Shown here: positions 31,421 to 64,000 of the stretch, one piece after another | How the letters are laid out: the number at the start of each line of letters is the position of its first letter | Numbering within the stretch: the stretch's first letter is position 1 | From: Saccharomycopsis phalli | Taxonomy: Eukaryota > Ascomycota > Saccharomycetes > Ascoideales > Saccharomycopsidaceae | DNA length: 64,000 nucleotides | NCBI GenBank assembly: GCA_020342235.1 | Contig: CP073213.1 | Location: forward strand, 350,501 to 414,500 | Direction: 5' to 3' | Program-made: the position numbers and the translations under genes | Notes under the pieces: model-generated | Told to the model about the DNA's origin: nothing | The model's database searches: none | What the model saw: only the letters and a program-made list of their open reading frames with translations

Positions 31421-31490
31421 GCGTAGACCGGGAATCGAACCCGGGGCCCATCGATGGCAACGATGAATTTTACCACTAAACCATCCACGC
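31421..31490 (-). tRNA. tRNA-Gly (anticodon GCC)
   Basis: On the minus strand GCGTGGA pairs with TCTACGC (one weak pair). The anticodon loop is TTGCCAT, and the T arm is CCGGG-TTCGATT-CCCGG. There is no intron. A T-rich Pol III stop (TTTTTTG-type) follows on the minus strand near 31410-31416. Confidence 0.93.
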
Positions 31491-31503
31491 CTATTCAAAA
31501 TAT

Positions 31504-31790
31504 TGTAACCAGGAAGGTACACTTCCCTGGTTAGGAGAAATGACACAGCGGTTAGAGACCCTGGTTGTATATATGCACGTGACGGGAGGAAGCCCGGGTT
31601 ATATGTGCACGTGAGAGGAATGAAGCCCTGGTAAGGGGTGAGTATAAATATACAAAGGGTGGCGTGAAGGAGGTCACGCAAGGTTACGGTCATAATATTG
31701 TAAGCTTTCATATACGTGAATAAGGAATCATAGACGCCTTATTCAGCATAACCAGCATTCCCCGAAGTAGATCGGATCTAACTGGTTATA
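31504..31790 (+). repeat. 5' LTR of the Ty3-like element
   Basis: The LTR begins TGTAACCAGG and ends CTGGTTATA. It contains two GCACGTG boxes and a TATA-like GAGTATAAATATA. The partner is at 36603-36889. Confidence 0.92.
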
Positions 31791-31792
31791 TT

Positions 31793-31802
31793 TGGTAGCG
31801 CC
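31793..31802 (+). other. Primer-binding site for initiator tRNA-Met
   Basis: TGGTAGCGCC, two bases after the LTR, is complementary to the 3' end of yeast initiator tRNA-Met and is identical to the Ty1 site. Confidence 0.88.
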
Positions 31803-31814
31803 ACAAGGTTCACC

Positions 31815-32624
31815 ATGGCGCACGAGGACAATCAACAACGAACCAACGAAGAGCCGCTGGCTGTTATCGTTCCCCAATTTGGCATTAGGAATTACGACGG
31901 GGTCGAGGACGACTTCGATGTGCATAGCTTTATGATCGCCATGAAAGCTTATCTCTTATACCTGCACATTCCCGACTCAAAACACATCGCATATATCCTG
32001 TCAAAATTGACAGGATCCGCATTGACATGGAACTATGAATGGTTGTCGTCTTTTCCTCTGGACGCTCCACCCACACCCACCGAATACTGGCAGGCTCTTA
32101 GAAAACAATTTGCCTCGCCAGACTATGAGTTTAACTTACGCATGAATTTCATGCATCTCCGTCAGGTCGGGTCGGTGGAGGACTACTCCCAACAATTCAA
32201 ACGGTTTATGCTTAAACTTCCGGACCATTACTCGCCAGAAACGGCGCTTTATCAGTACCTTGGGGGGTTACAATTCAAAGTCAGGGAAAGGACACGGTTT
32301 GAATACCCGAAGACCTGGATGGAAGCAACAGAGACGGCACATCGTTTTGACTACCTTTCCATCCAACGGAGGGGGGGAGAGAAAAGAACTGCAAACCAAC
32401 GCCGGATTGGAGGAAATGGGGAACCTCCAGCCAAGAAGAATAATGATAATTACAAAAAGAATATAACATGCTACTATTGCAATAAGAAAGGACATGTGAA
32501 AAGCGAATGTCGCGCCCGGTCCACGGACACCAAAGAACGAAGTACCATTAGAAACGTGAATCTGGAAGCGGGGGAACCGGAGGAAACCTTATGGCCTGAA
32601 GATCCAGAGACAAAAAACGGCTAG
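31815..32624 (+). CDS. Gag of the Ty3-like element
   Basis: The 269-residue capsid and nucleocapsid protein has a retrotransposon gag domain around residues 30-170 and one CCHC zinc knuckle (CYYCNKKGHVKSEC) near 216-229. It should form the virus-like particle and package RNA. The start ATG is the first after the primer-binding site. Confidence 0.85.
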   Translation: MAHEDNQQRTNEEPLAVIVPQFGIRNYDGVEDDFDVHSFMIAMKAYLLYLHIPDSKHIAYILSKLTGSALTWNYEWLSSFPLDAPPTPTEYWQALRKQFASPDYEFNLRMNFMHLRQVGSVEDYSQQFKRFMLKLPDHYSPETALYQYLGGLQFKVRERTRFEYPKTWMEATETAHRFDYLSIQRRGGEKRTANQRRIGGNGEPPAKKNNDNYKKNITCYYCNKKGHVKSECRARSTDTKERSTIRNVNLEAGEPEETLWPEDPETKNG

Positions 32625-32662
32625 GGTCTGCAACCGGGCAGGGTCAGTTGACAGACCTAGCC
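32612..32662 (+). promoter_or_regulatory. Probable gag-pol recoding signal
   Basis: Gag and pol are in different frames, as is normal in this family. The overlap holds the shift-prone heptamer AAAAAAC (32612-32618). A hairpin can form directly after it between GGCTAGGGTCTG (32619-32630) and CAGACCTAGCC (32652-32662). A similar motif occurs in the second Ty3-like element near 42680. Confidence 0.55.
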
Positions 32663-35600
32663 AACCCCGCGAACGATAGAGAACCAGGTGTCCGTCACCT
32701 CGTATATGTACATTTACTACACAACGGTGAACGAATAAAGACCTTGGTGGACTGTGGGGCCTCGATTTCATGTCTAAATAGGAAAACGCTTAAGAAACTT
32801 TCATTGTATGTAAAACCCACAGAAAAGGATATTGTGGTAACGGACATGGCGAATCGACCCGTGGAAAGAGTAAATGAATGGGTCCGCGGCGAGTTCGCCA
32901 TTGAGGAATTACGTGACAAAAACAAGCAGACATTTGATTTTTACGTATCAGAGAGGTGCTCGGACGAAGCTATCATAGGATTACCATTAATTTGGAAAAA
33001 CTTCGACCTCTTCTGGGCTGTAATGACGCAACAGTGGAATAAAATTTTGGATAAAAAATCAGAAACTGTACCTATGATCGGAACAGTGAAGGCGAAAAGA
33101 CTATTATCCACCAGAAGCAATGACTGTGTCGTCCTATTGATACGGACGGTGGAATCTGACTCACGGGCGCAACAATCGACTGCGCAGGTAACAAGAGCAG
33201 ATTGGGAAAGCACATTGACGGCAACAATAAGAACTACTCAGTCTCAGACGATAAGTGCATTCTCCGACGCTATGCAAGCGGGTCTTGGGAGAAGAGACAT
33301 GTATTCTTACATAGAATTTGTGGATGACAACTGGATTGACAGTGCACGGGAAGATCACGGGACTTGTGGATCTTCACTGGCAAGAGACAACCGTTGTGAA
33401 TTGAAGAGTCTGTATGCCCGAGTTGGTCATGAAGGGGAGGGAAGCTACCCGGACCGGGGGCCGCTACGTCAGGACGACGAGGCGCACAGAGAGTTTAGAA
33501 AAGAGGTAAAGTCACCGAATGACGGAAGTCCAACAGACTACCGGGAGTTTAGACGCCCACTTCAACAGGAGTGCGGTGGACAGGTAGGTCGGTTAGGACA
33601 AGGATCTCCTTCTGATTGTAAAATATCCGACGAACAGGATGGGCAGAACGACAGGAAAGGAGAGGCATCGAACAGGGTCATGGAAGAACGACGTGTATTG
33701 GAAAAATTTAAGGATACAATTCAAGAGGAATTGGGAAGCAATGGACCGATGTTTACACAGGTACGTCACCACATTCATATCCTAAATGACGCACGACCAA
33801 GCTATAGACGACCATATCGGTTGAACCCGGTGGATCGGAGGGAATTGAAAACCCAAATAGAAGGACTACTCCGTACAAAGAGAATATTTCCCACCTCGTC
33901 TCCGTATGGGGCACCGGTATTGTTTGTAAGGAAGAAGGACGGAAGTAAACGACTCTGCGTGGACTACAGAGGGTTGAACGATATCACTGAGAAATCGCGT
34001 TTTCCAGTGCCCAGAATAGAGGATTTGCTCGATCTCATTCAGGGGGCACAGGTGTTTTCGAAACTCGATCTCGTGAATGGATATCATCAAATTCTGATAC
34101 AGCCAGAGGACCGTCATAAGACAGCAATGGTCACCCCTTTTGGACAATATGGATGGAATGTAATGCCATTCGGCTTGTGTAATGCACCTGCGACGTTTCA
34201 GGCTGCAATGAATAAGTTATTACTACCATTGGAAAAATTCTGCATTGTCTACATAGATGACGTGCTCATTTTCTCGAGAAACTGGAAGGACCATAGGCAC
34301 CATATTGACACAGTAATGAACACGTTTAAGGAAGCCCACCTTACGGTGAGCCGGAAGAAATCAGAGTTTTTCCTTAGCAGTGTTGACTTTCTTGGTTACA
34401 AAGTATCAAAGAAAGGGGTGGAAGTCACGGATGAAAAAATCAAGACAGTGCAAGACTATCAAGTAAGGAACAAAGCGGAAGGACGATCGTTTGTCGGTCT
34501 TGCCAGTTATTACAGACGATTCATCAAGAATTTCGCGGAAATCGTGAAGCCGTTGAATCAATTCAACAACGGGAAGAGCGAGTGGACAGAAAAACAGCAG
34601 ACCGCAGTAGACACGTTAAAGCGATGTTTGACAACGGCACCGATACTCACAACGTATCGAGAGGATTTAGTATGCAGAGTCACGGCAGATGCGTCGAATG
34701 TAACGACCGGGGCTGTACTCGAACAGTTAGACAAAGCAGGAAAAGTTGTGGGAGTGGTTGAGTATATGTCGAATCTGCTCCAAGGAGCTGAGTTGAACTA
34801 CCCAGTACGGGAGAAAGAGTTACTTGCAATCATCAAAGCTCTCAAGAAATGGAGGCATTACTTAACGCTGCCATTTGAGATATTCACAGACCACCACTCC
34901 CTCACGTACCTCAGTTCCTCACGAAATGAAAACAATCAGCGAATGATAAGATGGCTACATTTTTTAGCGGACTTCAATTATGTTATTAGATATAAACCAG
35001 GCCACACGAACAAAGCGGCGGACGCATTGAGTAGATGCCTGCTAAAGGCCATTTTTACGGAAGAACCGCGCCCCAATGAATCAACTGATATTTTAAGAAT
35101 CACACGCGAAGAATATCTTGCAGACCCAGACTTCAAGGAGATTTACCAGATACTTTATGAAAATGCTCCGTGCCCAAAGAAACTTCGCACGAAGATAACC
35201 TTTTATCGGCCTGTTCGGGTGCAACAACAACGGGTTATTGCATTCAGGACATCCTTGGATGATATACTGAGAGTATGTCTCCCCAGAGGTCGATGGCAAA
35301 CGAAGGTAATACACATGTTCCATAATGCAGCGGCAGGTCTACACATGGGACCCACTAAGTTAGTTACACAGCTCCATCGGCTGGGCATCTATTGGCCTAG
35401 GATGGACAAGACAATAAAACGTCATTTACTCCATTGCGAAGTATGTCGAAAAATTAAACCAACGAATCAGTTGACGCCAGGGATGCTTATACCTTTATCG
35501 GTACCAATGGCGCGATGGTCAGATTTATCAATGGACTTCATATCAGGTTTCCCAGAAGACGCGGGTTACGACTCCATAATGGTAGTGGTAGATCGCCTCA

Positions 35601-36592
35601 CAAAACGGGCAAAATTTATTTCCTTTCGGAAGGACTATAATGCAGAACAAATGGCTGAATTATTCTTTCGCCATATTGTATGTGAACACGGCGTTCCGCG
35701 TTCCCTTGTGACGGATAGAGATCATTTGTTTGTAAACCATTTCTGGAAAACGGTAACTAGGATGTTGGGCATTATACACAAACTTTCGACGCCAGCCCAT
35801 CCAGAGACGGATGGACAAACGGAGAGGGTGAACAGGTATCTTGTGCAACTCTTACGAGCATGTGAACAGTTACAAATTAAGCATTGGCACGAGAAGCTAC
35901 CATTAATCCAGTTTGCGTACAATAGCCAGTATCACGAATCCATCAAGACGACACCATTCTTTGCAGATTTAGGATATCACCCAAGATACTGGGAAGTGGT
36001 GATTGGATACGATATACACCGAGTACTTAATGATAAAAAGATCGAACACGGAAACTACTTTGTTACCCAACAAGAAGAAACGCTCGAACTACTAAAAACG
36101 ATGATGGCAGAATCCCAGATCAAACAGAGCCTTCAGGTAAACAAACATCGGTCAGATGTTGTATACGAGGAGGGGGAGTGGGTGCTAGTTCACAAAAGCG
36201 CGTTCTACCTGTCAAAGGGACCCAAGAAGAAATTTGAGGCTCCGTTCAGAGGGCCGTTCAAGATAATTTCAAAGAAGAATCCAAATGCATATGAAGTTAA
36301 GACAAGTCCTAGGAAGAGTATGGTCATTAACATCACCAGGCTCCGCAAGTACTATCCACCACAACCGGCCGATCCAGAAGGATGGTACGCACTTAACTGC
36401 GACAAGATCAGACTAATCCTTGAGATTGAGGCAGGGACGGCAGTGGTAATGTACGAAGGAAGAGAAGATCCAGTAACCATTCCAGAGGCCTGGATCAGAC
36501 GGATACCTCAAGAGCGGATGGGGGTTTTGCTAGATGACCTACAGGATTTCGAAGCAGGAGGAGTTTGGCTGGTCGAGGACGACCAGGTCTGA
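32648..36592 (+). CDS. Pol of the Ty3-like element (PR-RT-RH-IN)
   Basis: The open frame covers about 1314 residues, and its true N-terminus comes from recoding out of gag. The order is aspartic protease (VDCGASIS, near 34), reverse transcriptase (LCVDYRGLN, YIDDVLIFS), RNase H (FTDHHSLTYL), zinc-binding integrase N-domain with HHCC pattern, then the DDE core (MDFISGFPED and following). A C-terminal chromo-like or GPY/F-type tail follows. The order RT-RH-IN defines Ty3/gypsy. Confidence 0.88.
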   Translation: MTDLANPANDREPGVRHLVYVHLLHNGERIKTLVDCGASISCLNRKTLKKLSLYVKPTEKDIVVTDMANRPVERVNEWVRGEFAIEELRDKNKQTFDFYVSERCSDEAIIGLPLIWKNFDLFWAVMTQQWNKILDKKSETVPMIGTVKAKRLLSTRSNDCVVLLIRTVESDSRAQQSTAQVTRADWESTLTATIRTTQSQTISAFSDAMQAGLGRRDMYSYIEFVDDNWIDSAREDHGTCGSSLARDNRCELKSLYARVGHEGEGSYPDRGPLRQDDEAHREFRKEVKSPNDGSPTDYREFRRPLQQECGGQVGRLGQGSPSDCKISDEQDGQNDRKGEASNRVMEERRVLEKFKDTIQEELGSNGPMFTQVRHHIHILNDARPSYRRPYRLNPVDRRELKTQIEGLLRTKRIFPTSSPYGAPVLFVRKKDGSKRLCVDYRGLNDITEKSRFPVPRIEDLLDLIQGAQVFSKLDLVNGYHQILIQPEDRHKTAMVTPFGQYGWNVMPFGLCNAPATFQAAMNKLLLPLEKFCIVYIDDVLIFSRNWKDHRHHIDTVMNTFKEAHLTVSRKKSEFFLSSVDFLGYKVSKKGVEVTDEKIKTVQDYQVRNKAEGRSFVGLASYYRRFIKNFAEIVKPLNQFNNGKSEWTEKQQTAVDTLKRCLTTAPILTTYREDLVCRVTADASNVTTGAVLEQLDKAGKVVGVVEYMSNLLQGAELNYPVREKELLAIIKALKKWRHYLTLPFEIFTDHHSLTYLSSSRNENNQRMIRWLHFLADFNYVIRYKPGHTNKAADALSRCLLKAIFTEEPRPNESTDILRITREEYLADPDFKEIYQILYENAPCPKKLRTKITFYRPVRVQQQRVIAFRTSLDDILRVCLPRGRWQTKVIHMFHNAAAGLHMGPTKLVTQLHRLGIYWPRMDKTIKRHLLHCEVCRKIKPTNQLTPGMLIPLSVPMARWSDLSMDFISGFPEDAGYDSIMVVVDRLTKRAKFISFRKDYNAEQMAELFFRHIVCEHGVPRSLVTDRDHLFVNHFWKTVTRMLGIIHKLSTPAHPETDGQTERVNRYLVQLLRACEQLQIKHWHEKLPLIQFAYNSQYHESIKTTPFFADLGYHPRYWEVVIGYDIHRVLNDKKIEHGNYFVTQQEETLELLKTMMAESQIKQSLQVNKHRSDVVYEEGEWVLVHKSAFYLSKGPKKKFEAPFRGPFKIISKKNPNAYEVKTSPRKSMVINITRLRKYYPPQPADPEGWYALNCDKIRLILEIEAGTAVVMYEGREDPVTIPEAWIRRIPQERMGVLLDDLQDFEAGGVWLVEDDQV

Positions 36593-36602
36593 AGGGAGAG
36601 AG

Positions 36603-36889
36603 TGTAACCAGGAAGGTACACTTCCCTGGTTAGGAGAAATGACACAGCGGTTAGAGACCCTGGTTGTATATATGCACGTGACGGGAGGAAGCCCGGGTTA
36701 TATGTGCACGTGAGAGGAATGAAGCCCTGGTAAGGGGTGAGTATAAATATACAAAGGGTGGCGTGAAGGAGGTCACGCAAGGTTACGGTCATAATATTGT
36801 AAGCTTTCATATACGTGAATAAGGAATCATAGACGCCTTATTCAGCATAACCAGCATTCCCCGAAGTAGATCGGATCTAACTGGTTATA
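36603..36889 (+). repeat. 3' LTR of the Ty3-like element
   Basis: This LTR is the same length as the 5' LTR and seems identical in sequence. Confidence 0.92.
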
Positions 36890-38859: not shown

Positions 38860-39274
38860 TGACGTAATCTAGCAGATCCTTATGGCATCCATATCTTCTA
38901 TTATAGATAATTCATCTTCTTGTTACTATACTAGCTATTTCCTGTCCTATTTATATTCTTTTTGAGATGCCTTCAGTTATCTTTATCTCATGACATCATT
39001 ATTAGTATGACCTCATATTATTATCAGTTCACTATTAGTATGACCTGATAACTTTATTAGATTGCTAATACTATGACCTCATACTCTTAATATACCATAA
39101 ACAGTATGATATCATGGTACTGAAGGATTGCTATTTCTCAATACCAGCTTATTTATCATGCATGATGTATATCACCATGCATTAACTCCTTCAACACTTT
39201 CAGCACTTTCAGCAATCTCTAGGATTTTCGACATCTTCAACATTTAATCTCTCAGATCTTCGACATCTTCAACA
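38860..39274 (-). mobile_element. Solo LTR of family D inside the family F element
   Basis: As it lies, it runs from TGACGTAATC to CTTCAACA and carries the 5-bp target duplication ATAGT on both sides (38855-38859, 39275-39279). It is longer (415 bp) and more diverged than the D LTRs at 54703 and 59000, so it is a separate, older lineage. Confidence 0.8.
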
Positions 39275-40783
39275 ATAGTTCGTCAGAGCCATGGATGAGA
39301 AATAGCATGCGACAAATGATAAATCTGGTCGACAAGCTCCCTGGACATAGTTTAAGATTCCTGTGAATTTCAAAAAGTTCTTATACTTACTTTCCTCATT
39401 GTTCCGGTCAATATTCACGTACGTATGGATTGGTACTGACTTTACCTTTCGTGCTGGAACTGGTGTTACTTCCGGAATCCGACTTTCGTCTTCTCGTTCT
39501 CTGCACATTATCAATCCATTTCGGCACACTAATGTCCCCTCAGTATCTTCTTTTGGATCCATTTTCTTCAACTCGATACCAAGCAAACATTTTGGAAATC
39601 CTAATATCGTCAATTCTACCCTGTCCCCCACTCTTTTCAAAAAATTGTCGACTTCTGAGCGATTTTTTCCCACAACTAGTATATCGTCAACATAAACTAC
39701 CACAATCATAGTCTTTGTAGGGTTCAGATAAATGGATTTGAGAATTGGCGCTATTTCCTCCATATCTAACTCTTTGAGGATTTTCTTGAAATGTTCATAC
39801 CACGCTTTTGGACTTTCCTTCAAACCATAAATGGCTTTCTGTACTTTGAGTGCCCACTTGTGTCCATGTTTGGGTCTGCCTTTCAACTTTTCAATTACCT
39901 CTCTTGGTGGTTGTGCAAGAACACTGGTACCCTCTGGGAGTTTAGCATTGAGAAACGCAGTTTTTACATCAGCTTGGGCGAGACACCACCCTTCCTTAAT
40001 GGCTAACGTAAGCAAAATGCGGATCGGTGTCGGTCGTACTGTAGGAGAGTAGACATCTCCCTCGTACCCATATTCTTGATACCGATCAACTTGATCTCCT
40101 CTCAACACTAATCGACTCTTGTAAAGCGTTTCACTCTTCCTCTTGTCTACCCAAGTCATTCCCATTAAACTAGTCTTATCAGGCACCTCCACTGGTACAA
40201 ACGTTTCATACGCCTGATGAGAAAGAATCTCTTTTTCTCTTGCTTCCTGTCTATTCGCTCGATCATCTCTAGTCAACTTTTTAATATGGCCATTAAATAA
40301 CGCATCATTACCATCGATAGCTAACTGGTTCTTCACTCTCTTAGGTGCTTGTTGAATAGATTCATTGTGTTCATTGATGATCAGCCTCTGGACAGGTTCT
40401 GACGGTTCAAGGTTGGAGTTGTTTTGTGATTCACCTGCAGATAGTGAATCGAAGTAGTAACCTGCATTTTCTTTTTCAATTTCTTGAACCGTCTCTCCTT
40501 CGCTTTGAGAAATCTCACTTCCTTTTGTCCGTTTTCTCGTCTGTGGTGACAAATCTTGGATAACTTCACTCTTTCTGCCTCTAGGTAAGATTGGCATTGG
40601 CAAAATTGTTTCATGAGGATCAAACTTCACGTTGGAGGTAATGTAGCGATGGCCAGTTACCGCATCTTCAATGACGTACCCCACAACGTCCTTTAGACAG
40701 CCGATGAATCTTCCGATCCTGTTGGGGATCATCGGATTTTGCTTTCTCTCCGTTCCCTTATTGTAGTATACCTTGGATCCAAA

Positions 40784-41065
40784 TGTTGTAATTTGGAAAG
40801 TCTTTCTTTAGCTGACATCTTTGATAAACTGTTTGTATTAACTTATTTATCTTATAGGTAAACTACTTACTTATTGTGGGCACATTGCCTCTTATTTATA
40901 GTGCTCTGATTAGCTACCGCGGATACTTCGTCTAAGTGAAACCCGTTTAAGTGAAACTCGTTTAAGTGAAACTCGTTTAGGTAGACTCGTTTAAGTAACC
41001 TCGTTTAAGTGAAACTCGTTTAGGTAGACTCGTTTATGCAGCCTCGGATTTTAATCATCACAACA
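40784..41065 (-). mobile_element. Family C LTR (subfamily C2)
   Basis: It runs from TGTTGTAATTTGG to ATCATCACAACA. The U3 part carries repeats of the type GTTTAAGTGAAACTC (C2). The flanks show no matching target duplication. Confidence 0.85.
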
Positions 41066-41209: not shown

Positions 41210-41433
41210 TGTTGTGATGATTAAAATCCGAGGTTGCATAAACGAGTCTACCTAAACGAGTTTCACTTAAACGAGTTTCACTTAGACGAAGTATCCGCGG
41301 TAGCTAATCAGAGCACTATAAATAAGAGGCAATGTGCCCACAATAAGTAAGTAGTTTACCAATAAGATAAATAAGTCAATACAAACAGTTTATCAAAGAT
41401 GTCAGCTAAAGAAAGACTTTCCAAATTACAACA
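41210..41433 (+). mobile_element. Family C LTR (subfamily C2)
   Basis: It runs from TGTTGTGATGATTAAAATCC to AAATTACAACA, with a short U3 repeat block. It is inverted relative to the LTR at 40784-41065. Confidence 0.85.
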
Positions 41434-42810
41434 AGTAATTCATTCATAACTGCTTGGAACGTTGCCGGCGCATTACATAGGCCAAACGGTATAACATTCC
41501 AACTATATTGTCCAAATGGTGTAACCATAGCCGTTTTGTACCGATCGTTTTTCTCAACCGATATTTGATGATATCCACTAACTAAATCTAGTTTAGAGAA
41601 TATTTTTGATCCCAGGATGTGGTCTAATAGATCTTCTATCCTTGGTATCGGGAATCTAGATTTCACCGTTATTTCATTTAAACAACGGTAATCAACACAT
41701 AGACGTTTACTACCGTCTTTTTTTATGACAAATAAAACCGGCGCTCCATACGGCGACGACGTAGGAAAAATTTGTTTTTTATTTAGAAGATCGGTTATTT
41801 GTCGTTTTAATTCCGCCCGATTTTCGGGATTTAACCTATACGGTCGTTTAAATGTTGGTTTACTTCCGGGAACAATATGGATATGATGGGTTACTTTTTG
41901 AAATTTTTCCCCATCCATTTGTATGACTTCACGGATTATATTTTTGTATTTTTGTAATACTTGGCATTGTTTTTCTTTAATGACACCATCAGTAATTAGC
42001 TTTCCGTCAATTTTTGACTGTAATACCTCATGTTGATCTTTTTGATCATGAGTTTTTAATGAAGATTTGTCCGATTTTTCTCGTGGCAAAACCTCATATT
42101 CCATAATTTTTAATTCATTTATTTCGAATTTTGTTTCTTTCTTGGGAGAAGTCTGAGGAGAATTTAATCCTAAATCATCATTCGTAGTCACAGTAATTGC
42201 GTAAATTTCATTACTATGACTTTTTAACAAACGATTAGCTTCTTTTAGTCCCATAATTTTTATTTGTTGCTTTTGTAGAGCTTGATAGTGCATTATGGTT
42301 AGAAACCATTCCCAATTTTGTAAAATGGTAGGTAATCCAATAATACAATCATGCGCACATTTATCGGAAAGAAGAAAAGAAAATTTTATTTCTTTTTCCT
42401 CCAATCCTTTTTCACTGATGAAAGTTGCTTCCGACCAGTCATTTATAAGTTCAATTATTCTACCAGCGGCATCCGTAAGTTTTCTTGGAGTCGCGGTTTT
42501 ATTTATTTGAAAGTCAAGGTTTAGGGCTATGCTTTTATTAATACAAGAGACAGAAGCACCAGTATCAACCAATGCTTTAATAGTGCTATCCTTATATTTT
42601 AAATCTATAAGAATAAAAGTCAAACTTAAAGGTTCACCCTTATTGCTTTTCGGGTCTCTCGATGGGCCTTCAACATCGACAGACCCTAGGCATTTTTTGT
42701 CTTCTCTGCTATCTTGATATCTTCGGAATCTGTAACATCATCCGTTTCAAATATATTTAAATTAGACAGCGGAGTGGTATTTTTCTTGGCAAACCAACAT
42801 TCCTCAATTG
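41434..42810 (-). mobile_element. Fragment of a second Ty3/gypsy-type element
   Basis: The minus strand holds the end of gag, protease (VDTGASVSCI) and the first part of reverse transcriptase (LCVDYRCLNEI, FGLCNAPATFQ). It is related to, but clearly distinct from, the element at 31504. Both sides are cut by other LTRs, so it is a remnant. Confidence 0.78.
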
Positions 42811-51604: not shown

Positions 51605-53711
51605 TCTAGTCAGGAGAATAGTGATTCTACATCTGATACACAAAGAAAAGAGGTCACTAATTCCGAGTCGGAATTTTCCAGTGATACTAATCGGATTTTT
51701 GGTTTTACACCACGAAAACGTACTGTGAAACATAGTCTTGAAAATCTGAATAGTACATCTGATGATGGCCCCTCTAGTTCTGATGAAGCTGACCCTATGA
51801 TACGTTCAGCTTCTAGGGGGGATAAGCGCTATCGGGAATCGGAATTAGTGTTTAACAGAGGTGATCTGGAATCAAGCAGCAATACCATATCATTAAATCA
51901 TAGAATTGTGGTATCCTCAGAATCGGAAGAATCAAGTGATGATAATACTAATTATGCTGCAACATGTTTTATGGTGGAATCTGAATTGCGCAATAACGTA
52001 CCAATTACCTTCACACAAGCAGTACGAGGCCATGATAGCAAGAAATGGGAAAAAGCAATTATGGAAGAGATAGATGCACATAATAGCAATAAAACTTTCA
52101 GATTAGTTCCACCTCAAGGACGAAAAGCAGTTTCTTGCAGATGGGTATTTGCGATCAAGGATGATGGAAGATACAAGGCACGGTTAGTTGCTAGGGGATT
52201 TACACAAGTAAAAGGAATTGATTATTCGGAAACATTTGCACCTGTTATCAGATATGAATCAATAAGAATTGTGTTATCAATTGCAGGAGCTTATGGACTT
52301 ACTGTACATCAGATGGATGTAAAGACTGCGTTCCTTAATGGAGAATTACTGGAAAATATTTATATGGAACAACCAGAAGGTTTTGAATGTAAAGGGAAAG
52401 AAGATTATGTCCTCAAGCTTGAAAAGTCGATCTATGGTTTAAAACAAGCACCTCTTGTATGGAACAACAAAATTAACGGAGTATTGAAAAAGATAGGATT
52501 TAAGATTAATGAAGCAGAACATTGCTTATACTCAAAGAAAAAGGGCAGCAGTTTCATCATGATTGCACTTTATGTGGATGACATACTTATCGCTGGAAAT
52601 CAAGTGAGCGATATCCAAGAAGTGAAAAATCAATTAATGCAACATTTTAAAATGAAGGATTTAGGAGTGGCTACAAAATTTCTTGGGATGAATATTAACC
52701 AAGATGGAGAGAATATTACGCTACTGTTAGATGACTATATTGAAGACATGTTATTTCAATTCCAAATGAAAGACGCAAATCCAGTGGCTATACCGGCTGC
52801 AACAAATCAAGACCTTACAGATGATGATGATAAATCAAAGCCATGTAATGGTACAGAATATCGGTCTTTAGTTGGTAAATTGTTATTTGCAGCTAATACG
52901 GTTCGTTTTGATATCAGTTATATTGTTGGAATGTTATCAAGATATCTCAAGACACCAAAAGAAATACATTGGACAGCAGCGAAAAGAGTAGTGAAATATT
53001 TAAAAGGAACCAAGAATCTGGGAATCGCATATACCAGGAGTAACAATCCTGTTTTAAATGGTTTTTGTGATGCAGATTGGGGAAAGGATAAATCAGATAG
53101 AAGATCAACTAAAGGGTACATGTTTAAATTTGGGGATGGTGCTATCACCTGGAAGTCGAGAAAACAATCCACGGTGGCTTTATCCACAACTGAAGCGGAA
53201 TATATGGCACTTGGTGAAGGCATCAAAGAAATAATATCGTTAAAACTGTTATTCAAAGGAATAGGTATTGACTTGAAGGGATCGGTCATTCATGAGGATA
53301 ATGCAAGCTGTATTAGCCTCGCTAAGCATGCCGCCGTACATGGCCGGACGAAGCACATTGACATTAAACATCATTTTATCAGGGAATATATTGCTTCAGG
53401 AGAAGTAGTATTACAACATCTTGGAACCAAAGAAATGTTAGGCGACATGCTTACCAAAGCCCTCCCAGAGATTCAATTTACACGACTAATTTATATGTGT
53501 GGAATGAGAAGTGTTTAGTTATGGGAGGGTGTTGATGAATACCATGTGAGGATAAGGTTTAACCCAAACACTATTAGAGCTAACATTCCATAATAAGGTT
53601 CAACTGACAATGAGACAAGTATCCGGAATAGGAACAAACTGGTAAACAAGAATTAACTTATTTACACCAAGTAAATATGGAAGCCGTACAAAGAGAAGCT
53701 AGATTACAACA

Positions 53712-53918: not shown

Positions 53919-54315
53919 AACGTCTGTAAGATAGCCTGGTACTACCACCAGTACCAGTGCGAAGTTCCCATCGGAGAAAATATGTCGATGCCGAAATCCT
54001 CTTCCATTGAGTGTGACATCGTTACAAAATTATAGGATAGATATTCCCTTATAAGAACCTATCATGAGTTTCACATTACGTCACAACTGCAAATTGTGCC
54101 GTCCCATAAGTACATTCCAACGTAGAATAGCTTCTCCGTTATAGGTGTCTTACTTGTGGTTTTCAACCTCAACAAAATATTATACTAAGTACGTCACTAT
54201 TCAAGCCCTTTAGGCAATCATTGTTCATTAAGACCATAATTAATATGCCCGTTATCTCTTCTTTCTAAATAACTGCTTTTACCTCTTGGTAAAAATTTGC
54301 TCAGATAATAAAAAA
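53919..54315. other. Unassigned spacer with possible LTR remnants
   Basis: TAAGATAGCCTGGTACTACC near 53930 resembles the outer end of repeat family G. GTTACA at 54021-54026 on the minus strand could be the start of a Ty3-like LTR (TGTAACGATG). Neither can be confirmed. No gene is seen. Confidence 0.4.
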
Positions 54316-54389
54316 CACCGGACCTGGGACTCGAACCCAGAGTCTCCTGATTAGAAGTCAGACGCCCTAACCAATTAGGCTAGCCTGGC
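54316..54389 (-). tRNA. tRNA-Arg (anticodon TCT), second copy
   Basis: It differs from the copy at 28317 by only a couple of acceptor-stem bases, one of which leaves an unpaired position. The anticodon arm and T arm are identical. The minus-strand downstream T run (A6 at 54310-54315) is a Pol III terminator. Confidence 0.9.
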
Positions 54390-54403
54390 AAATTTTAACC
54401 GAG

Positions 54404-57400
54404 TGTAACCAGGAAGGTACACTTCCCTGGTTAGGAGAAATGATACAGCGGTTAGAGACCCTGGTTGTATATGTGCACGTGATGGGAGGAAGCCCGGGTT
54501 ATATGTGCACGTGATGGGAGGAAGCCCGGGTTATATGTGCACGTGAGAGGAATGAAGCCCTGGTAAGGGGTGAGTATAAATATACAAACGGTGGCGTGAA
54601 GGAGGTCACGCAAGGTTACGGTCATAATATTGTAAGCTTTCATATACGTGAATAAGGAATCACGGACGCCTTATTCAGCATAACCAGCATTCTCCGAAGT
54701 AGTGTCGTAAGCTAGCGTTTCTCTCAATGGCTTCCATATCTTACTATTGTAGATATTCTTATTCTTGTTACTATACTAGCTATTTCCTGTCCTATTTATA
54801 TTCTTTCTGAGATGCCTTCAGTTATCTTTATCTCATGACATCATTATTAGTATGACCTCATATTATTATCAGTTCACTATTAGTATGACCTGATAACTTT
54901 ATTAGATTGCTAATACTATGACCTCATACTCTTAATATACCATAAACAGTATGATATCATGGTACTGAAGGATTGCTATTTCTCAATACCAGCTTATTTA
55001 TCATGCATGATGTATTTCACCATGCATTAACTCCTTCAACACTTTCAGCACTTTCAACACCCTCTCTTAACTGAAGACTTCTCATTCCACACATAAATCT
55101 TAGTTTCTAGTATAAGTGATTCCTAGATCCTTTGTTCCTTTCAAATATTTCACTACTCTCTTTGCTGCTGTCCAGTGTATTTCTTTTGGAGTCTTAAGAT
55201 ATCTAGACAAAACTCCAACAATATATCCAATATCAAACCGGACAGTATTTGCCGCAAATAACAATTTTCCAACTAAAGATCGGTATTCTGTACCATTACA
55301 CTGTTTTGAATTGTCTTCACAATTTGTAAGATCTTGATTTGTGGCAGCAGGAATTGTAACTGGTTTTGCGTCCTTCATCTGGAATTCTGATAACATTGAT
55401 TCAATATAATCATCCAACAGTAATTTAATAGTTTTGCCATCTTGATCAATATTCATTCCAAGAAATTTCTTAGCAACCCCCAAGTCTTTCATTTTAAAGT
55501 GTTGCATTAGTTGTTCTTTGACCTTTTGAATACTGTTCTCTTGATTTCCAGCAATAAGTATATCATCCACATAAAGTGCAATCATGATGAAACTGCTGCC
55601 CTCTCTTTTTGAGTATAAACAATTTTCGGCTGCATTATTCTTATATCCCAATTTTTGTAATACTCCATTAATCTTGTTATTCCATACGAGTGGCGCCTGT
55701 TTCAAACCATATAGTGATTTTCCAAGTTTAAGCACATAATCTTCTTTTCCTTTAACCTCAAACCCTTCTGGTTGTTCCATGTAAATGTCCTCCAGTAATT
55801 CTCCATTAAGGAACGCAGTCTTCACATCCATCTGATGTATAGTAAGTCCATAGTTTCCTGCAATTGATAACATGATTCTTATTGATTCATATCTTATAAC
55901 TGGTGCAAACGTTTCAGTATAATCAATCCCTTTTACTTGTGTAAATCCCCTTGCCACTAATCTCGCTTTGTATCTCCCATCATCCTTGATAGTAAATACC
56001 CAGCGACATGAAATTGCCTTTCGTCCTTGAGGGGGAACTAAAGTGAAAGTTCCATTCTGATTATGAGCTTCTATTTCTTCCATAATTGCTTTTTCCCATT
56101 TCTTGCTGTCATTACCTCGAACTGCTTGTGTGAAAGTTATTGGTATGTCATTGCGTAATTGAGTTTCGGCCATTAAACATGTGGCCACGTGATTAATACC
56201 CTCATCACTTAATTCTTCCGATCCTGAAGATACCACAATTCTGTGCTTTAAAGATATGTATTCATTACTTGATTCCGAATCTCCACTGTTAATTACCAAA
56301 TCTGATCCCCGATATCGCTTATCCCCCCTTGAAGCTGAACGTATCATAGGGTCAGCTTCATCAGAACTAGAGGGGCCATCATCAGATGTACTATTCAGAT
56401 TTTCAAGACTATGTTTTATAATACGTTTCCGTGGTGTTCTCCCAGGACGACGATTAGTGTCACTAGAAAATTCTGATTCACTTCTTGATACTTGTGATCT
56501 TTCATCATCTGGCGTAGATGAAGTTTCACTGTCCCCAGAGTCGTTCTTTATACTCTCAATATCGTCACCAGATATATTTTCACCATGATCACTGATATCT
56601 GCTAAATTATCCTCATCAGCAGTAGTAGTACTTGAGATAGTATCAACACTGTCCTCAGTATCATTACTAGTTGGATCTTCTGCACCATGATCCATAATTT
56701 TCTCTGCTTTTGCATCGTCAGTCACACTATCATTTTCATTATTCACATCATCATTCTCACAGTTAACGTCATCATCTGGATCAATTCTCCCTGAAACCTT
56801 GTGTTCTCCTTTCTTCAACTTAGAACTAATTGATCGATCGCTATTAACTGGAACAGCTCCAATACCCTTGGCCGTTCCTCCAATACCCACAATTGGGTTT
56901 TCCGCAGATGCTTCTTGCGCCATAGACACAGCGGAATAATAGTAGCTACCCTCATCAAAACGAACATGCGTTGCAGTTACAATCATCCTCTTAGTCGGAT
57001 CAAACAACCTATAGGCCTTTCTTAAAGGTTCATATCCTAGCATAACACACTTAATTCCTGTGGCCGCAAACTTTCCAGCTCGGATATCTATAGGAATATT
57101 GCCATAAGCAACACATCCAAATACTCGAAGAATAGATAAATCAGGTTTATTTCCAGTCCATCTAAGATATGGACACTCTCCATTAATAGTTCTGGATGGA
57201 CTTCTATTAATGAGATAAACTGCAGTCAATACTGCTTCTGGCCAGAGTTCTACTGGCACATTACTCGCATGCATCATAGCTCTCGTCTTTTCTTGAATGG
57301 TCCTATGCATGCGTTCCGCCACTCCATTCTGATAGGAATGATAAGGAACTGTCAACTCATGACTAATTCCCTTTGTTATAAAGAACTGATGGAGAGCTCT

Positions 57401-59381
57401 ATTCACAAACTCTCCTCCATTATCAGTTCTAACAATACCGGCACAAAACAGTAATCCTTTACTCTGAAACTGTCTTTCACTGTTGACAATAAACTGAATC
57501 AATGCTTCTGTACTTTCTGATTTCTTCTTAAGGCATACCACATGAGTCCATTTAGTATAACCATCAACCACTGTTAGAAAATACTTGGATTCATTCACGG
57601 ACTTATAATTAAATGGTCCACACACATCAACATGTAATAATTGGAGTGGTTGTATCGGCTGTGTAGTTCGCAGTTTTGGAATACTTACTGTAGTTTTAGT
57701 TACGGAACATTCACCACACATAGTGATATGATCGCTACTCTTCCAAAAACCATGTTCTTTATTAATACTTTCCATAACATTAGTACCAGGATGTCCTAAT
57801 CGCCGATGCCAAGTCTCAATATTATCTTCTGATTTGGCTTTAAAAGCAACACTTCCATTATCAGAATTCTGTATCCTGTAGAGTCCTGTATTCGGTTCTT
57901 TGACTGCAATTACTTGTTTTGTAACATAATCAATAGCCTTCTGTCCATCAAATAAAATTTTCGCCCATTGTCAGTTGCTCGTGAAACTGACACAAGATTA
58001 ACTTCTCCACCTGGAGTATAATATGCATCCTTCAATTGTATAGTAGTTCCACCAAGCAAGTTCATACTGACTTTGCCTCTTGCCGTAATTGCCAACAGAC
58101 CCCCAATTCCTTTAATCCGATCATCATGGGTTTCCAAAGATTCAAATAACGCCTTGTTTGCCATAAAGTGTCTCGATGCCCCACTATCAAGATATGTGGG
58201 ATACTTTTCCGCAACCCCATGGTATGCAAGCCATGAGTGATTGTTCTTCGATAATGCATGCTTCTCATCATCATCGGTTTCCTTAAGTACCTTCTTACAA
58301 TCCTTTTTCACATGTCCCTTTTTACCGCACTTAAAACAGGTCACCTGACGTCGTGCCTTCCGATGTCCTAGAAATGCCGAATGATTATTACCAGCCTGAT
58401 ATTCACCATCCATTTTGCTAAAAAAATGCATAAAATTTGAAGTTTCCGCAGTAATGCCTCGATTATCATACCGGTCAATAAAGTTTTGGATAACATGTTC
58501 CGGAACTTGCTCTTGTCGAAGAATAAAGATTCCAATAATGCATGATTGCATTTCCTGACTAAAATTTGAAAAATAGTTCCGATGTCGTTCCATGGCATAT
58601 TCAAATGGCGATAGTGTGCTTGAAGATGGCGATACAGTGGTTGTACCCTTTACTGCTTGAGCAAATGACATTGTCCCATACTCATCCTTGATTGTATGAA
58701 ACCGTTCTCGTGCAGTCGAGCATTGAATTCTCTCAGTATATTGTGCAACCTTTTCAGTAACTCCCTTTCGTAATAATAACGCAATAATACCATCTAATGC
58801 TGTCGCCGCATTATTGACCACTTCATTTGGTGATCCATCTGGTAATCCAAGGTCCCCATGGACAAGGTACTGAACAAGACCGAAGCCAATCAGATCGAGC
58901 TTGTAGATAAATAACTTTGCCCATCGAGCATAATTGGTAGCTCCTTGCAACTTTTCTGTTGGTTCAAAAGTTGCCTCGCTTCCAGGGTTACTCATAACCT
59001 GTCGTAAGCTAGCGTTTCTCTCAATGGCTTCCATATCTTACTATTGTAGATATTCTTATTCTTGTTACTATACTAGCTATTTCCTGTCCTATTTATATTC
59101 TTTCTGAGATGCCTTCAGTTATCTTTATCTCATGACATCATTATTAGTATGACCTCATATTATTATCAGTTCACTATTAGTATGACCTGATAACTTTATT
59201 AGATTGCTAATACTATGACCTCATACTCTTAATATACCATAAACAGTATGATATCATGGTACTGAAGGATTGCTATTTCTCAATACCAGCTTATTTATCA
59301 TGCATGATGTATTTCACCATGCATTAACTCCTTCAACACTTTCAGCACTTTCAACAAGTAGATCGGATCTAACTGGTTACA
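54404..59381 (+). mobile_element. Ty3-like solo LTR upstream of tRNA-Arg, split by a family D element
   Basis: The LTR pieces are 54404-54702 and 59362-59381. Together they match the LTR of the element at 31504. The outer target duplication is CCGAG (54399-54403, 59382-59386). One internal block with a GCACGTG box is present in three tandem copies instead of two. Its left edge is 15 bp from the 5' end of tRNA-Arg. Confidence 0.85.
54703..59356 (-). mobile_element. Copia-type family D element (Ty5/Tca5-like)
   Basis: The element has two 357-bp LTRs (54703-55059 and 59000-59356) that look identical by eye, and the target duplication AGTAG (54698-54702, 59357-59361). Gag and protease (57910-59034; CFKCGKKGHVKKDC, LDSGAS) start inside the LTR. 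Integrase and reverse transcriptase (55100-57775; HVDVCGPFNYKS, QMDVKTAFLNGEL, YVDDILIAG) follow. The primer-binding site is GGTTATGAG (58991-58999). It looks recent, but pol is incomplete; about two breaks. Confidence 0.87.
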
Positions 59382-59633: not shown

Positions 59634-59902
59634 TGTTGTGATGATTAAAATCCGAGACGGCATTAGCTATCGGCATTAGCTATCGGCATTGGTTAAACGG
59701 CATTAGCTAAACGGCATTACAATACGCCGTAGCTAAATGGCATTAGTTAAGCGGCATTACGACACGCCGTAGCTTATAAGAGGACTATAAATAAGAGGCA
59801 ATGTGCCCACAATAAGTAAGTAGTTTACCAATAAGATAAATAAGTTAATACAAACAGTTTATCAAAGATGTCAGCTAAAGAAAGACTTTCCAAATTACAA
59901 CA
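59634..59902 (+). mobile_element. Family C LTR (C1) facing a family C gag fragment
   Basis: This complete 269-bp LTR has GGCATTAGCTAAAC repeats. No matching target duplication is visible. Confidence 0.85.
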
Positions 59903-60748
59903 GAAGAGTATTAGTAGTAATCCCCTTGTGCTCAAGTTCTTTAATGACGCTTGAGATAACCGGATATGGCACACCAAGTTGCATCATGTTATCCAAGGTC
60001 CATAATGCAATGATTGCCTCCTTAGTCAATTGCTGCCTAACCAACAAATTTTTGCGTTGAAGCATTGCCCTGATGTCAACAAACTCAGTGGGCCTAGTAG
60101 CCTCTTCCAGAATCCCAGCGCTAGTGAGAGCCACTGGGAGTGGAAGAGTACCATACTTCTCTTGAAGAAACAAAAATTGATTTCTAGCAGTCAGACGTGA
60201 GTGCGTGGAGCGAATAATTCCGCGAATCTCTTGGCTAATACTTGCCTTGAGAACAATACCAAACACGCTATCCAATTGTTCAATAAAGAAAGCAGAAGAA
60301 ATGTCCGAGATATCGTCCAGTTCGATGCTCAGAGTTCCATTTTCGGCGTATTGAAGTAAGCCGACCCCGAAGCCAAAAAGAAAGTCCTCGAGTTCCTTCA
60401 TCCAAACATGATAAGTCTCTGGACCAGTCAATGTTAATTCAGAGGGGAACTGCAGGACGCTTGCAGGATGCATCATAACCTGTTGTAATTTGGAAAGTCT
60501 TTCTTTAGCTGACATCTTTGATAAACTGTTTGTATTAACTTATTTATCTTATAGGTAAACTACTTACTTATTGTGGGCACATTGCCTCTTATTTATAGTC
60601 CTCTGATTAGCTACCGCGGATACTGCGTCTAAGTGAAACTCGTTTAAGTGAAACTCGTTAAAGTAAAACTCGCTTAAGTAACCTCGTTTAAGTGAAACTC
60701 GTTTAGGTAGACTCGTTTATGCAGCCTCGGATTTTAATCATCACAACA
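59903..60748 (-). mobile_element. Family C 5' end: gag fragment plus LTR (C2)
   Basis: The LTR is 60481-60748 with GTTTAAGTGAAACTC repeats, followed on the minus strand by the primer-binding site and the first part of gag down to 59903. The rest is missing. Fragment only. Confidence 0.82.
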
Positions 60749-61194: not shown

Positions 61195-61498
61195 TGTAAC
61201 GGGCAATTCCCGGTACCTCCCTTTTGGTATATGACTGGCACGTGAATCACTCTACGTGTTACCCTAGGGTAAGCGGCCAACCTGCAGGTTGTATCTAAAA
61301 GCCAACATGCAAAGCCTCGAGAAAGAGGAGAAGGATGCCACTAGAAAGAACTATAAATACATGACGCCAGGCCTTATGGCCAACTAACCTTTTACCTACA
61401 TCTTGTAAGCTTGTTTTCCTTGAAAACCGGATTATAACAATAATAATATAAGGAGGTAATTATTAGGCCCATTACCCTAACGGACCTAAAATATTACA
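61195..61498 (+). mobile_element. Ty3-like solo LTR upstream of tRNA-Glu
   Basis: It runs from TGTAACGGGCAATTCCCGG to AATATTACA, with CACGTG boxes and a TATA-like CTATAAATACATG. It ends 13 bp before tRNA-Glu. The 5-bp flanks do not match exactly, so the target duplication is unproven. A head-to-head Ty3-like LTR lies 6 bp to its left. Confidence 0.7.
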
Positions 61499-61511
61499 AT
61501 AAATAAAATCT

Positions 61512-61583
61512 TCCGATATAGTGTAATGGCTAGCACGGTGCTCTCTCACAGCGCAGATCGGGGTTCAATTCCCCGTATCGGAG
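61512..61583 (+). tRNA. tRNA-Glu (anticodon CTC)
   Basis: The acceptor TCCGATA pairs with TATCGGA. The anticodon arm is GTGCT-CTCTCAC-AGCGC, and the T arm is CGGGG-TTCAATT-CCCCG. It is very similar to yeast tRNA-Glu and has no intron. A TTTT run follows. Confidence 0.93.
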
Positions 61584-61592
61584 TTTTATTTT

Positions 61593-61782
61593 TGTTGTAT
61601 AAGTTGTTTTTTGGAAAATATTTCTTTAACTGAGATATGTGACAAATTGTTTGTATTAACTTTTTTATCTTATCGGTAGACTATTTACTTTTTGTGAGGC
61701 ACTTCACCTCATATTTACAGTCTTCTGAATAGCAACCTCGGATTGTTCGGCTAGTTCGGATTTTAATCATCATGGCACAACA
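61593..61782 (-). mobile_element. Degenerate family C-like LTR
   Basis: It is recognisable by TTGTTTGTATTAAC, TTTACTTTTTGTG and GGATTTTAATCATCATGGC. It is much diverged and shorter, so it is old. Confidence 0.6.
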
Positions 61783-62100
61783 TTCTGTGCTATTCAAGAC
61801 TGAGTATGGAACTATTAAATTTAACCATGCGCTTAAAGGCTTTGTTGCACTGCTAAACAGCCCTGTGTGCGCTGTCACCGATGAATCAATCAATCATGTT
61901 TTAAAAAGATAACATGATTACTAGAATGACTCTAAAAGAGAAGCGATTCTCTGTGCTCTTAGAGTATTTACCTTACGGTAAGAAGGAATCCTTGAATTGA
62001 ATATTAACAGCATAGTCACTCAATATCAGCATCGGGAAACGACTCCGCTTAATGTTAATTTCTTATAATTCAATGGTATGATAAATGAAAATTATCAAGC
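61783..62100 (+). pseudogene. Degenerate family B-like gag fragment
   Basis: The segment near 61795-61850 resembles the EYGTMTFNQAIQG region of family B gag. It is a heavily decayed fossil with several breaks. Confidence 0.5.
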
Positions 62101-62102
62101 TT

Positions 62103-62221
62103 GACGTCATACGAAGTATGATACAAGAAGATGGTCACGTGACAAGCGGAATAAGCAACATGGGAAGCATAGGCGCCGATCTATGATGATACGCAATATG
62201 ACTCCGCCACCTCACAGTGGA
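62103..62221 (-). repeat. Third copy of repeat family G, truncated
   Basis: It is inverted relative to 30990-31115. Shared parts are GACGTCATACGAAGTATGAT, GGTCACGTGA and CATGGGAAGCATAG. A family B LTR begins where it stops. Confidence 0.65.
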
Positions 62222-62544
62222 TGTTGATGAATACCATGTGAGGATAAGGTTTAACCAAACACTATTAGAGCTAACATTCCATAATAAGGTTCAACTGACA
62301 ATGAGACAAGTATCCGGAATAGGAACAAACTGGTAAACAGAATGTGAGTATAAATAGTATAGGATACGTATAGTTAGAACAACAAGAATTGACTTATTTA
62401 CACCAAGTAAATATGGAAGCCGTACAAAGAGAAGCTAGATTACAACAGGTTATGAGAGACCCTGGAAGCGTGGCTCTTTTTGAGCCGACAGAAAAGTTGC
62501 AAGGATCCACTAATTATGCCAGGTGGGCAAAATTAGTTGCTCGA
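62222..62544 (+). mobile_element. Second family B copy: 5' LTR and start of gag
   Basis: The LTR is 62222-62447, followed by the site GGTTATGAG (62448-62456) and about 97 bp of gag nearly identical to 43038-43134. A family C LTR cuts it off. Confidence 0.85.
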
Positions 62545-62753
62545 TGTTGTGATGATTAAAATCCGAGGCTGCATAAACGAGTCTACCTAAACGAGTTTCA
62601 CTTAGACAAAGTATCCGCGGTAGCTAACCAGAGGACTATAAATAAGAGGCAATGTGCCCACAATAAGTAAGTAGTTTACCTATAAGATAAATAAGTTAAT
62701 ACAAACAGTTTATCAAAGATGTCAGCTAAAGAAAGACTTTCCAAATTACAACA
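62545..62753 (+). mobile_element. Family C LTR (C2), short
   Basis: This 209-bp LTR has a reduced U3 repeat block. It faces a minus-strand family C fragment, as at 59634. Confidence 0.85.
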
Positions 62754-64000
62754 TTTCCAACCGAGATAAGGTTAGCAATACCGTTAGGAGTGTAACCAAC
62801 ATCGTGTAGAATAAAAGGTCCAGCTGGAGTAGAAATCCGAACTGTACCTTTCCCAACAATCGCAAGGTTTCCAGCAACACCCAGAATAGAGCCATTCTCT
62901 GGAATCATGTTTTGAAAGAAACGAATGTCAGAGAAGAAATGTCCACTGGCACCAGTATCAAGAAATGTTGGTATCAGTAACAGATGTCCAAGGAAGGAAT
63001 AAGCCAACATACCTTGAGGATACTCTTCATCATATGGTTGTTGCTTTTCCTTCTTTTTACCTTTGCGACGAGGTTTGGACGTCTTCTTGGACAGAGAATC
63101 GTGACCCAAAAGTGCAAGACTGTTCAGACGAACATACTCATGCGATCCAGTTATCTCATGCAAGACCTGATACAGAAGAGTATTAGTAGTAATCCCCTTG
63201 TGTTCAAGCTCTTTAATGACGCTTGAGATAACCGGATATGGCACACCAAGTTGCATCATGTTATCCAAAGTCCATAATGCAATGATTGCCTCCTTAGTCA
63301 ATTGCTGTCTAACCAACAAATTTTTGCGTTGAAGCATTGCCCTGATGTCAACAAACTCAGTGGGCCTAGTAGCTTCTTCCAGAATCCCAGCGCTAGTGAG
63401 AGCCACTGGGAGTGGAAGAGTACCATACTTCTCTTGAAGAAACAAAAATTGATTTCTAGCAGTCAGACGTGAGTGCGTGGAGCGAATAATTCCGCGAATC
63501 TCTTGGCTAATGCTTGCCTTGAGAATACCAAACACGCTATCCAATTGTTCAATAAAGAAAGCAGGAGAAATGTCCGAGACATCGTTCAGTTCAATGCTCA
63601 GAGTTCCATTTTCGGCGTATTGAAGTAAGCCGACCCCGAAGCCAAAAAGAAAGTCCTCGAGTTCCTTCATCCAAACATGATAAGTCTCTGGACCAGTCAA
63701 TGTTAATTCAGAGGGGAACTGCAGGACGCTTGCAGGATGCATCATAACCTGTTGTAATTTGGAAAGTCTTTCTTTAGCTGACATCTTTGATAAACTGTTT
63801 GTATTAACTTATTTATCTTATAGGTAAACTACTTACTTATTGTGGGCACATTGCCTCTTATTTATAGTCCTCTTATAAGCTACGGCGTGTCGTAATGCCG
63901 CTTAACTAATGCCATTTAGCTACGGCATATTGTAATGCCGTTTAGCTAATGCCGTTTAGCTAATGCCATTTAGCTAATGCCGTTTAGCTAATGCCGTCTC
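62754..64000 (-). mobile_element. Family C 5' part: gag-protease fragment and LTR (C1), running off the window
   Basis: Gag and the protease region (LDTGASGHF) lie on the minus strand at 62754-63749. The LTR from 63750 continues past the window end and shows the GCTAATGCCGTTTA form of the C1 repeat. Fragment with about one further break. Confidence 0.83.

Follow-up and report, generated by a model that had tools for sequence, protein, structure and literature searches.

We examined a 64,000-nucleotide stretch of contig C2 of the yeast Saccharomycopsis phalli (C2:350501-414500; hereafter the window), the right half of which is occupied by a nest of long terminal repeat (LTR) retrotransposons for which an earlier reading of the sequence alone (the original prediction) suggested that it may be, or may border, a centromere. 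The assembly comprises 14,148,124 bases in 8 contigs (N50, 1,822,654; largest contig, 2,335,166), the same figures as in Table 2 of PMC8468998, where the genome of the species was published as Saccharomycopsis phalluae. Open reading frames (ORFs) were translated with table 12 (CTG = serine), and coordinates above 64000 continue the window numbering into fetched C2 DNA. Retroelement ORFs, LTRs, and repeats cover 91.6% of positions 31421 to 64000 versus 16.4% of positions 1 to 30000, which confirms the predicted gene-free nest; past the window, the cover is 68.3% from 64001 to 84000 and 4.7% from 84001 to 94000. The size of 33 kb first given for the nest was inaccurate. Repeats run from about 30.0 to about 84.7 kb (C2 about 380 to 435 kb), that is, about 20 kb beyond the window; the nest, rich in retroelements and nearly devoid of genes, measures about 54 kb. 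For this cluster, the only one so delimited, ordinary genes form the bounds: a Ras-family gene reaching to 28.2 kb on the left and, on the right, SEC7 at 88.3 kb, the first Pfam-matching gene right of the nest in the fetched DNA. Sixteen ORFs of at least 150 amino acids lie between 31421 and 64000. Retroelement Pfam domains were detected in 14 of the 15 that were scanned (42979-43518 was left out), with none in ORF 38216-38824. ARAGORN recovered the three tRNA genes already noted in the stretch: tRNA-Gly (gcc; 31420..31490, − strand), tRNA-Arg (tct; 54315..54390, −), and tRNA-Glu (ctc; 61511..61584, +).

Three LTR families recur in the nest, each with TG..CA ends followed by the 8-base motif GGTTATGA: B (about 210 to 370 bp), C (357 bp), and E (226 to 227 bp). 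Seven of the eight occurrences of this motif between 29 and 84 kb adjoin an LTR end, in keeping with the predicted presence of at least three copia-type families primed by a half-tRNA. We take GGTTATGA to be a putative half-tRNA-iMet primer site, as it fits the general iMet anticodon loop; a search of the genome with a tRNA-iMet gene pattern gave no match. A half-tRNA primer site is a published mark of the family and has been used for the elements of Wickerhamomyces anomalus (PMC12711049). The Ty5 Gag N-terminal domain (PF17241) scored above its cutoff in four window ORFs belonging to families B and C (44610-46292, 57910-59034, 59895-60515, and 62726-63784), and in family E a PF17241 match (C2:393530) stands directly downstream of an E LTR (C2:393311-393537). 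The family C ORF 55100-57775 has the copia order, with integrase upstream of RVT_2. A midpoint-rooted reverse transcriptase (RT) tree, which took in families B and C and left out S. cerevisiae Ty5 and the family E RT, placed window B, window C, and a truncated window element in a 21-row group (support, 100/99). Thirteen rows of this group come from outside, six of them bearing PF17241 and one being from O. polymorpha. The RTs of B and of the C group form separate, well-supported groups within one eight-row clade of the genome, and the B and C proteins agree at 44.5% over a piece with the SH3-like part of the integrase and at 62% over an RT-bearing piece. On the gag domain (B, C, and E), the domain order (C), and the RT grouping (B and C), we assign the three families to the Ty5-type LTR retrotransposons.

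The nest also holds elements of other kinds. Next to the tRNA-Gly gene, at 13 bp, lies a full-length Ty3/gypsy element (31504..36889, +) that bears the marks of Ty3: a Ty3_capsid domain, RVT_1, a 5-bp target duplication (AATAT), and a site beside a gene transcribed by RNA polymerase III; its LTRs are identical at 287 of 287 positions. Pfam scans of the ORFs identified in addition a Ty3/gypsy-type fragment with protease and RVT_1 domains (41406..42623, −) and a non-Ty5 copia fragment (39269..40732, −; RVT_2 at 124 bits and a long branch in the RT tree). The claim that the whole stretch is of the Ty5 type was wrong and was rejected on these scans. Around these fragments lie a family C LTR copy (38882..39214, −; C2:389382-389714; 97%), found in the genome search with LTR C, and two family B LTRs identified by repeat and LTR comparison (40784..41065, −; 41210..41433, +).

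Further to the right, the 227-bp family E LTR mentioned above (42811..43037, +) is followed by the primer-binding motif GGTTATGA at 43038 and, 3′ of it, by an ORF with Pol_BBD and gag_pre-integrs domains (43481-44398). A family B element (44336..50138, +) has its 5′ LTR up to 44605, the primer-binding motif at 44606, a Ty5-type gag/integrase ORF (44610-46292), an RT near 48425-49138 (both by Pfam), and its 3′ LTR at 49870-50138; the LTR pair is identical at 240 of 243 aligned bases, with 52 gap positions. It is interrupted by a solo B LTR (46256..46553, +; duplication GTTCC). A second solo B LTR (51335..51604, +; duplication TCTAG) sits within a truncated Ty5-type element related to family C (50193..53518, +; 84% at the amino acid level to C over the RT-bearing ORF), and a family E LTR fragment follows (53529..53653, +; row C2:404030-404211 of the LTR E genome search). 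By LTR comparison and flanks, a Ty3-type LTR 13 bp from tRNA-Arg (54404..54702, +) is split by the insertion of a full-length family C element (54703..59356, −), which has LTRs identical at 357 of 357 positions, a duplication of AGTAG, and ORFs for gag (57910-59034, −) and integrase-RT (55100-57775, −) with the frame interrupted between them (Pfam). Beyond it lie the family B LTR that served as the query of the LTR B search (59634..59902, +) and the 5′ part of a family B element (59895..60748, −) with its gag ORF (59895-60515), primer-binding motif (60473), and LTR (60481-60748). A 312-bp LTR-like repeat (61195..61506, +) ends 4 bp upstream of tRNA-Glu, and its second copy lies 4 bp from a tRNA-Val gene beyond the window. 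The right edge holds a family E LTR (62222..62447, +) with the primer-binding motif at 62448, a family B LTR (62545..62753, +), and the 5′ part of another family B element (62726..64000, −) with a Ty5-type gag ORF (62726-63784), the primer-binding motif at 63742, and an LTR (63750-64020, −) that reaches 20 bp over the window edge.

Identical 5-bp flanks were found at 9 of the 25 element or LTR loci examined (0.02 expected by chance), which bears out the serial nesting that had been proposed, and a tenth locus (78217-78425) also has matching flanks once its right edge is corrected. Two kinds of newcomer meet in the nest, Ty5-type elements that lie on one another and elements that seek tRNA genes. 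Insertion has been recent, as shown by identical LTR pairs in two window elements, one Ty5-type and the other Ty3.

We located the elements of the nest across all eight contigs, defining cluster territories as the gag span plus 15 kb per side (3.7% of the genome) and end territories as 35 kb at each of the 16 contig ends (4.0% of the genome); row counts include fragments. With all 60 candidates scored, the Ty5-type gag gave 54 matches; eight internal clusters hold 49 of them, the remaining 5 are no more than 12.5 kb from a contig end, and there are none elsewhere. This confinement is partly circular, because the gag rows themselves served to define the territories; the remaining queries are distinct from gag, though physically linked to it. 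All 83 RVT_2 candidates were scored and gave 83 rows: of the 46 that reached at least 150 bits, 44 fell in clusters and 2 at ends; at 80 to 140 bits, the 22 rows divided into 12 in clusters, 4 at ends, and 6 elsewhere; and below 80 bits, the 15 rows divided into 10, 2, and 3, respectively. Every LTR B row lay in a cluster (45/45, from the best 40 of 132 candidates). LTR C gave 43 rows (40 of 161 candidates), with 20 in clusters, 21 at ends, and 2 at C1 1.577 and 1.626 Mb, and LTR E gave 47 rows (40 of 40 scored), with 14 in clusters, 29 at ends, 3 at C1 1.61 to 1.62 Mb, and 1 at C1 835 kb. As families C and E occur in subtelomeres as well, the presence of Ty5-type elements alone does not mark a centromere. 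The control Ty3 LTR, from another superfamily, was also enriched near clusters (17 of 23 rows in or near clusters and 6 elsewhere; 22 of 22 candidates scored), so part of the cluster pattern may reflect shelter rather than targeting. RVT_1 matches, putatively LINE-like (long interspersed nuclear element), occur at several cluster borders and in subtelomeres and also at C7 0.94 to 0.99 and 1.24 to 1.25 Mb.

Family B came up nowhere but in clusters (gag, 83 of 83 candidates; LTR, best 40 of 132), and families C and E came up in subtelomeres too. A family B gag query returned 76 rows (83 of 83 candidates scored): all 52 rows at 63% identity or more lay in clusters, and the 24 rows that reached no more than 44% (C and E with relatives) were divided between clusters (19) and ends (5). 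Fisher's test on this difference in location gave P = 0.0023, for rows that are not independent and that were sorted by eye within the territory limits. A count over 36 kb of DNA from contig ends, of which 2.5 kb is N, gave no B, five C, and five E LTRs. We tentatively propose, as a reading only a little short of an even chance, that related Ty5-type lineages divide their targets within one genome, with B confined to centromeres and C and E shared between centromeres and subtelomeres.

The original prediction also called for exactly one cluster per chromosome. Contigs C2 to C7 bear this out with one cluster each; C1 has two and C8 has none, and both have explanations at the level of the assembly. 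Counted over eight contigs, the rule of one cluster fails; it holds only if C1 comprises two chromosome bodies and C8 is a piece of one. C8 has telomere-type repeats at its left end and stops at its right end inside an 18S rRNA gene (C8:1015528-1018027). Because its right end lies within 18S ribosomal DNA (rDNA), we take C8 to be a chromosome piece that continues through the rDNA, and its lack of a cluster was rejected as a contradiction. PMC8468998 places telomeres otherwise, giving contig 8 a 3′ telomere only. The terminal repeat, an 8-base unit CGGATGTG, was seen at both ends of C1 and C3, at the right ends of C2 and C4, and at the left end of C8. The telomere unit of Saccharomycopsis fibuligera has been reported as the 11-base GGGTGGTGTAA (PMC5106798); judged from these repeats, the telomere sequence has changed within one genus.

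Between the two clusters of C1 lies an interstitial subtelomere (C1:1576511-1627500) with subtelomeric LTRs, RVT_1 pieces, and a subtilase-like fragment, in which positions 1,625,067 to 1,627,500 are 99.75% identical, in inverted orientation, to C1 7,566 to 10,000 (2.4 kb of the contig's own left subtelomere). One chromosome end carries a subtilase-like gene, and DNA related to it is present at the C1 left end. Because the interstitial subtelomere separates its clusters, C1 appears to consist of two chromosome bodies with one cluster apiece, whose joining took place either in the living cell or in the assembly, and the two clusters were rejected as a plain contradiction. When eight clusters were placed at random with weighting by length, all eight units were hit in 0.12% of trials; with C1 counted as one (seven units), all were hit in 1.9%. 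In the second C1 cluster (C1:2068838-2120992), Ty5-type gag and RT rows recur every ~29.78 kb, which suggests a large direct duplication in this cluster, either genuine or produced by the assembly.

Because each chromosome body would have one cluster and because Ty5-type gag lies only in clusters and at ends, we consider it very probable that the chromosome containing C2 has the nest as its centromeric region, a regional centromere of the Ty5-cluster kind. The interpretation first offered is thus supported by the single clusters on C2 to C7, by the confinement of gag, and by published precedents in the same genus. Under such a model, centromere identity would be epigenetic, with Cse4 chromatin over the nest and one centromere per chromosome body, and Ty5-type integrases would tether to centromeric chromatin or to something bound there. 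New copies would therefore land in the same gene-free stretch, often within older copies; recombination would leave solo LTRs; and tRNA-seeking Ty3-type elements would join them, as tRNA genes lie in the nest. RNA interference-based upkeep, or heterochromatin directed by it, looks unlikely, because no Argonaute Piwi domain was found in the genome in a search that matched 1 of 14 control genomes, a diverged Argonaute being possible. A search for NDC10_II was uninformative, with no match here or in the controls. A possible lead on conserved location is that some flank genes resemble UTP20, YNL011C, DBP7, GCN3, and FAB1, which are centromere-proximal genes in S. cerevisiae; the genes that other flank genes resemble (for example PHO89, IQG1, and RIA1) are not known to be so placed.

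Several observations weigh against a centromeric nest on C2. Its GC content (0.403, versus 0.435 in 1-28300) makes it only mildly AT-rich, and the lowest-GC 1-kb windows differ slightly (0.329 in the nest and 0.346 in the gene part). Subtelomeres hold 21/43 LTR rows of family C (40 of 161 candidates scored) and 29/47 of family E. C8 would most likely continue into C2 via the rDNA, with C6, whose left end is without telomere repeats, as the other possible partner, and C8 probably makes up one chromosome with one of the two; the C2 left end showed no LTR B, C, or E in the 7.5 kb after its first 2,500 bases. If C1 is a single true chromosome, one of its two clusters is not an active centromere.

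One alternative takes C1 for a real chromosome that arose by fusion, not for a product of the assembly, with one of its two centromere clusters inactivated. Such a fusion fits the telomere repeats found on either end of C1, a 24-base repeat pattern without an exact internal match, and the interstitial subtelomere at about 1.58 to 1.63 Mb. However, the junction shares at least 2.4 kb at 99.75% identity with the contig's own left end, a site prone to long-read misjoining, and the ~29.8-kb repeat spacing of the second cluster likewise points to an assembly problem or a duplication. We regard a true fusion as possible but doubtful.

It is also possible, though improbable, that the nest is associated with the centromere without forming it, with the kinetochore assembling on short or unique sequence in or beside the nest and the Ty5-type elements merely attracted. 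Such an arrangement has been proposed for W. anomalus, in which isolates differ in having Ty5-like elements and carry a 21-bp motif instead (PMC12711049), and unique stretches do occur in the nest (e.g., 37649-38855) and in its extension (e.g., 79237-81213). Nevertheless, no unique stretch of the nest found a match in DNA of the other clusters, in a weak test covering flanks and 3.7-kb pieces only, and the nine unique stretches checked have GC contents of 0.353 to 0.500, all above the 0.329 of the lowest 1-kb windows. It is highly improbable that the clusters are a mere sink in which Ty5-type elements enter any silent or gene-poor chromatin: families C and E do fill subtelomeres and S. cerevisiae Ty5 enters telomeric silent chromatin (PMC5911963), but a general sink would not be expected to be limited to a single internal site on each chromosome body, the searches placed no family B copy at a chromosome end (LTR search, best 40 of 132 candidates; gag, 83/83; 36 kb of end DNA), and the islands published for Saccharomycopsis fall at centromeres that were inferred or mapped by Hi-C.

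The centromeric interpretation of the nest accords with what is known in the genus. S. fibuligera has one copia LTR island per chromosome, marked by a drop in RNA sequencing signal and inferred to be the centromere (Choo 2016, PMC5106798). As here, the islands are single Ty1/copia clusters without an extended AT-rich region; they are described in that source as highly repeated and degenerate and are filed under Ty1/copia, without a Ty5-type assignment in its accessible text, whereas the window has two elements with identical LTR pairs (Ty3 and Ty5-type) and three Ty5-type LTR families. Saccharomycopsis schoenii likewise has large regional centromeres, mapped by Hi-C at 25 to 34 kb, with copia remnants in some (PMC13148404, 2026). 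The cores of those centromeres are AT-rich (GC, 33%), most of their copia sequence has decayed, and two intact elements stand at the boundaries, in contrast to the nest, at a GC content of 40% and mostly retroelement. Farther afield, Scheffersomyces stipitis (order Serinales) has 20- to 40-kb clusters of Tps5 and its LTRs, defined as the only such places in the genome (PMC8546629, citing Coughlan & Wolfe 2019); that source reports no full-length subtelomeric retrotransposons, unlike the subtelomeric C and E families here. Cyberlindnera sargentensis, of another order and with Hi-C data, has one Ty5-like cluster on every chromosome, as here, with copies that are all apparently pseudogenes (PMC12711049). 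Ogataea polymorpha, also of another order, has Ty5-like centromeres (PMC12711049) and contributes one protein to the RT clade of the window elements. S. cerevisiae Ty5 shares PF17241, and in its preference for telomeres it is similar to families C and E, but it targets through Sir4, reported as a Saccharomycetaceae protein (PMC6394760). It is a matter of open debate whether yeast centromeres are built by Ty5-like elements or only visited by them (PMC12711049).

Outside the nest, the gene part of the window encodes an IQG1-like protein with closest named matches in S. crataegensis (53%) and Ascoidea rubescens (41%). A 1,113-amino-acid ORF (5586-8927, +) with GLEYA and Candida_ALS repeat matches and 108-nt repeats resembles a cell wall adhesin.

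In the accessible text of PMC8468998, the words "centromere" and "retrotransposon" are absent, and that of PMC12925627, on yeast centromere-kinetochore coevolution, does not mention Saccharomycopsis, Ascoidea, or Ty5. A literature search over titles and the starts of abstracts, with subscription papers mostly outside its scope, returned nothing on S. phalluae centromeres or on the split between B and C/E. As far as this search shows, the species is the third Saccharomycopsis with retrotransposon-built centromere candidates, in an order whose centromere structure is little studied, and its elements are now placed in the Ty5-type group. In the published assembly, C1 and C8 call for checking before either is counted as a complete chromosome. 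The centromere type itself is already known in the genus; the fresh point is that B came up in clusters only, beside C and E, which are subtelomeric as well. If the split in targets is true, it would imply two separable modes of chromatin recognition, one centromere specific (B) and one shared between centromeres and telomeres (C and E). A genome that holds a centromere-only family together with telomere-sharing relatives would permit an internal comparison, and the part of the integrase that recognizes centromeres would be mappable by comparing families B, C, and E.

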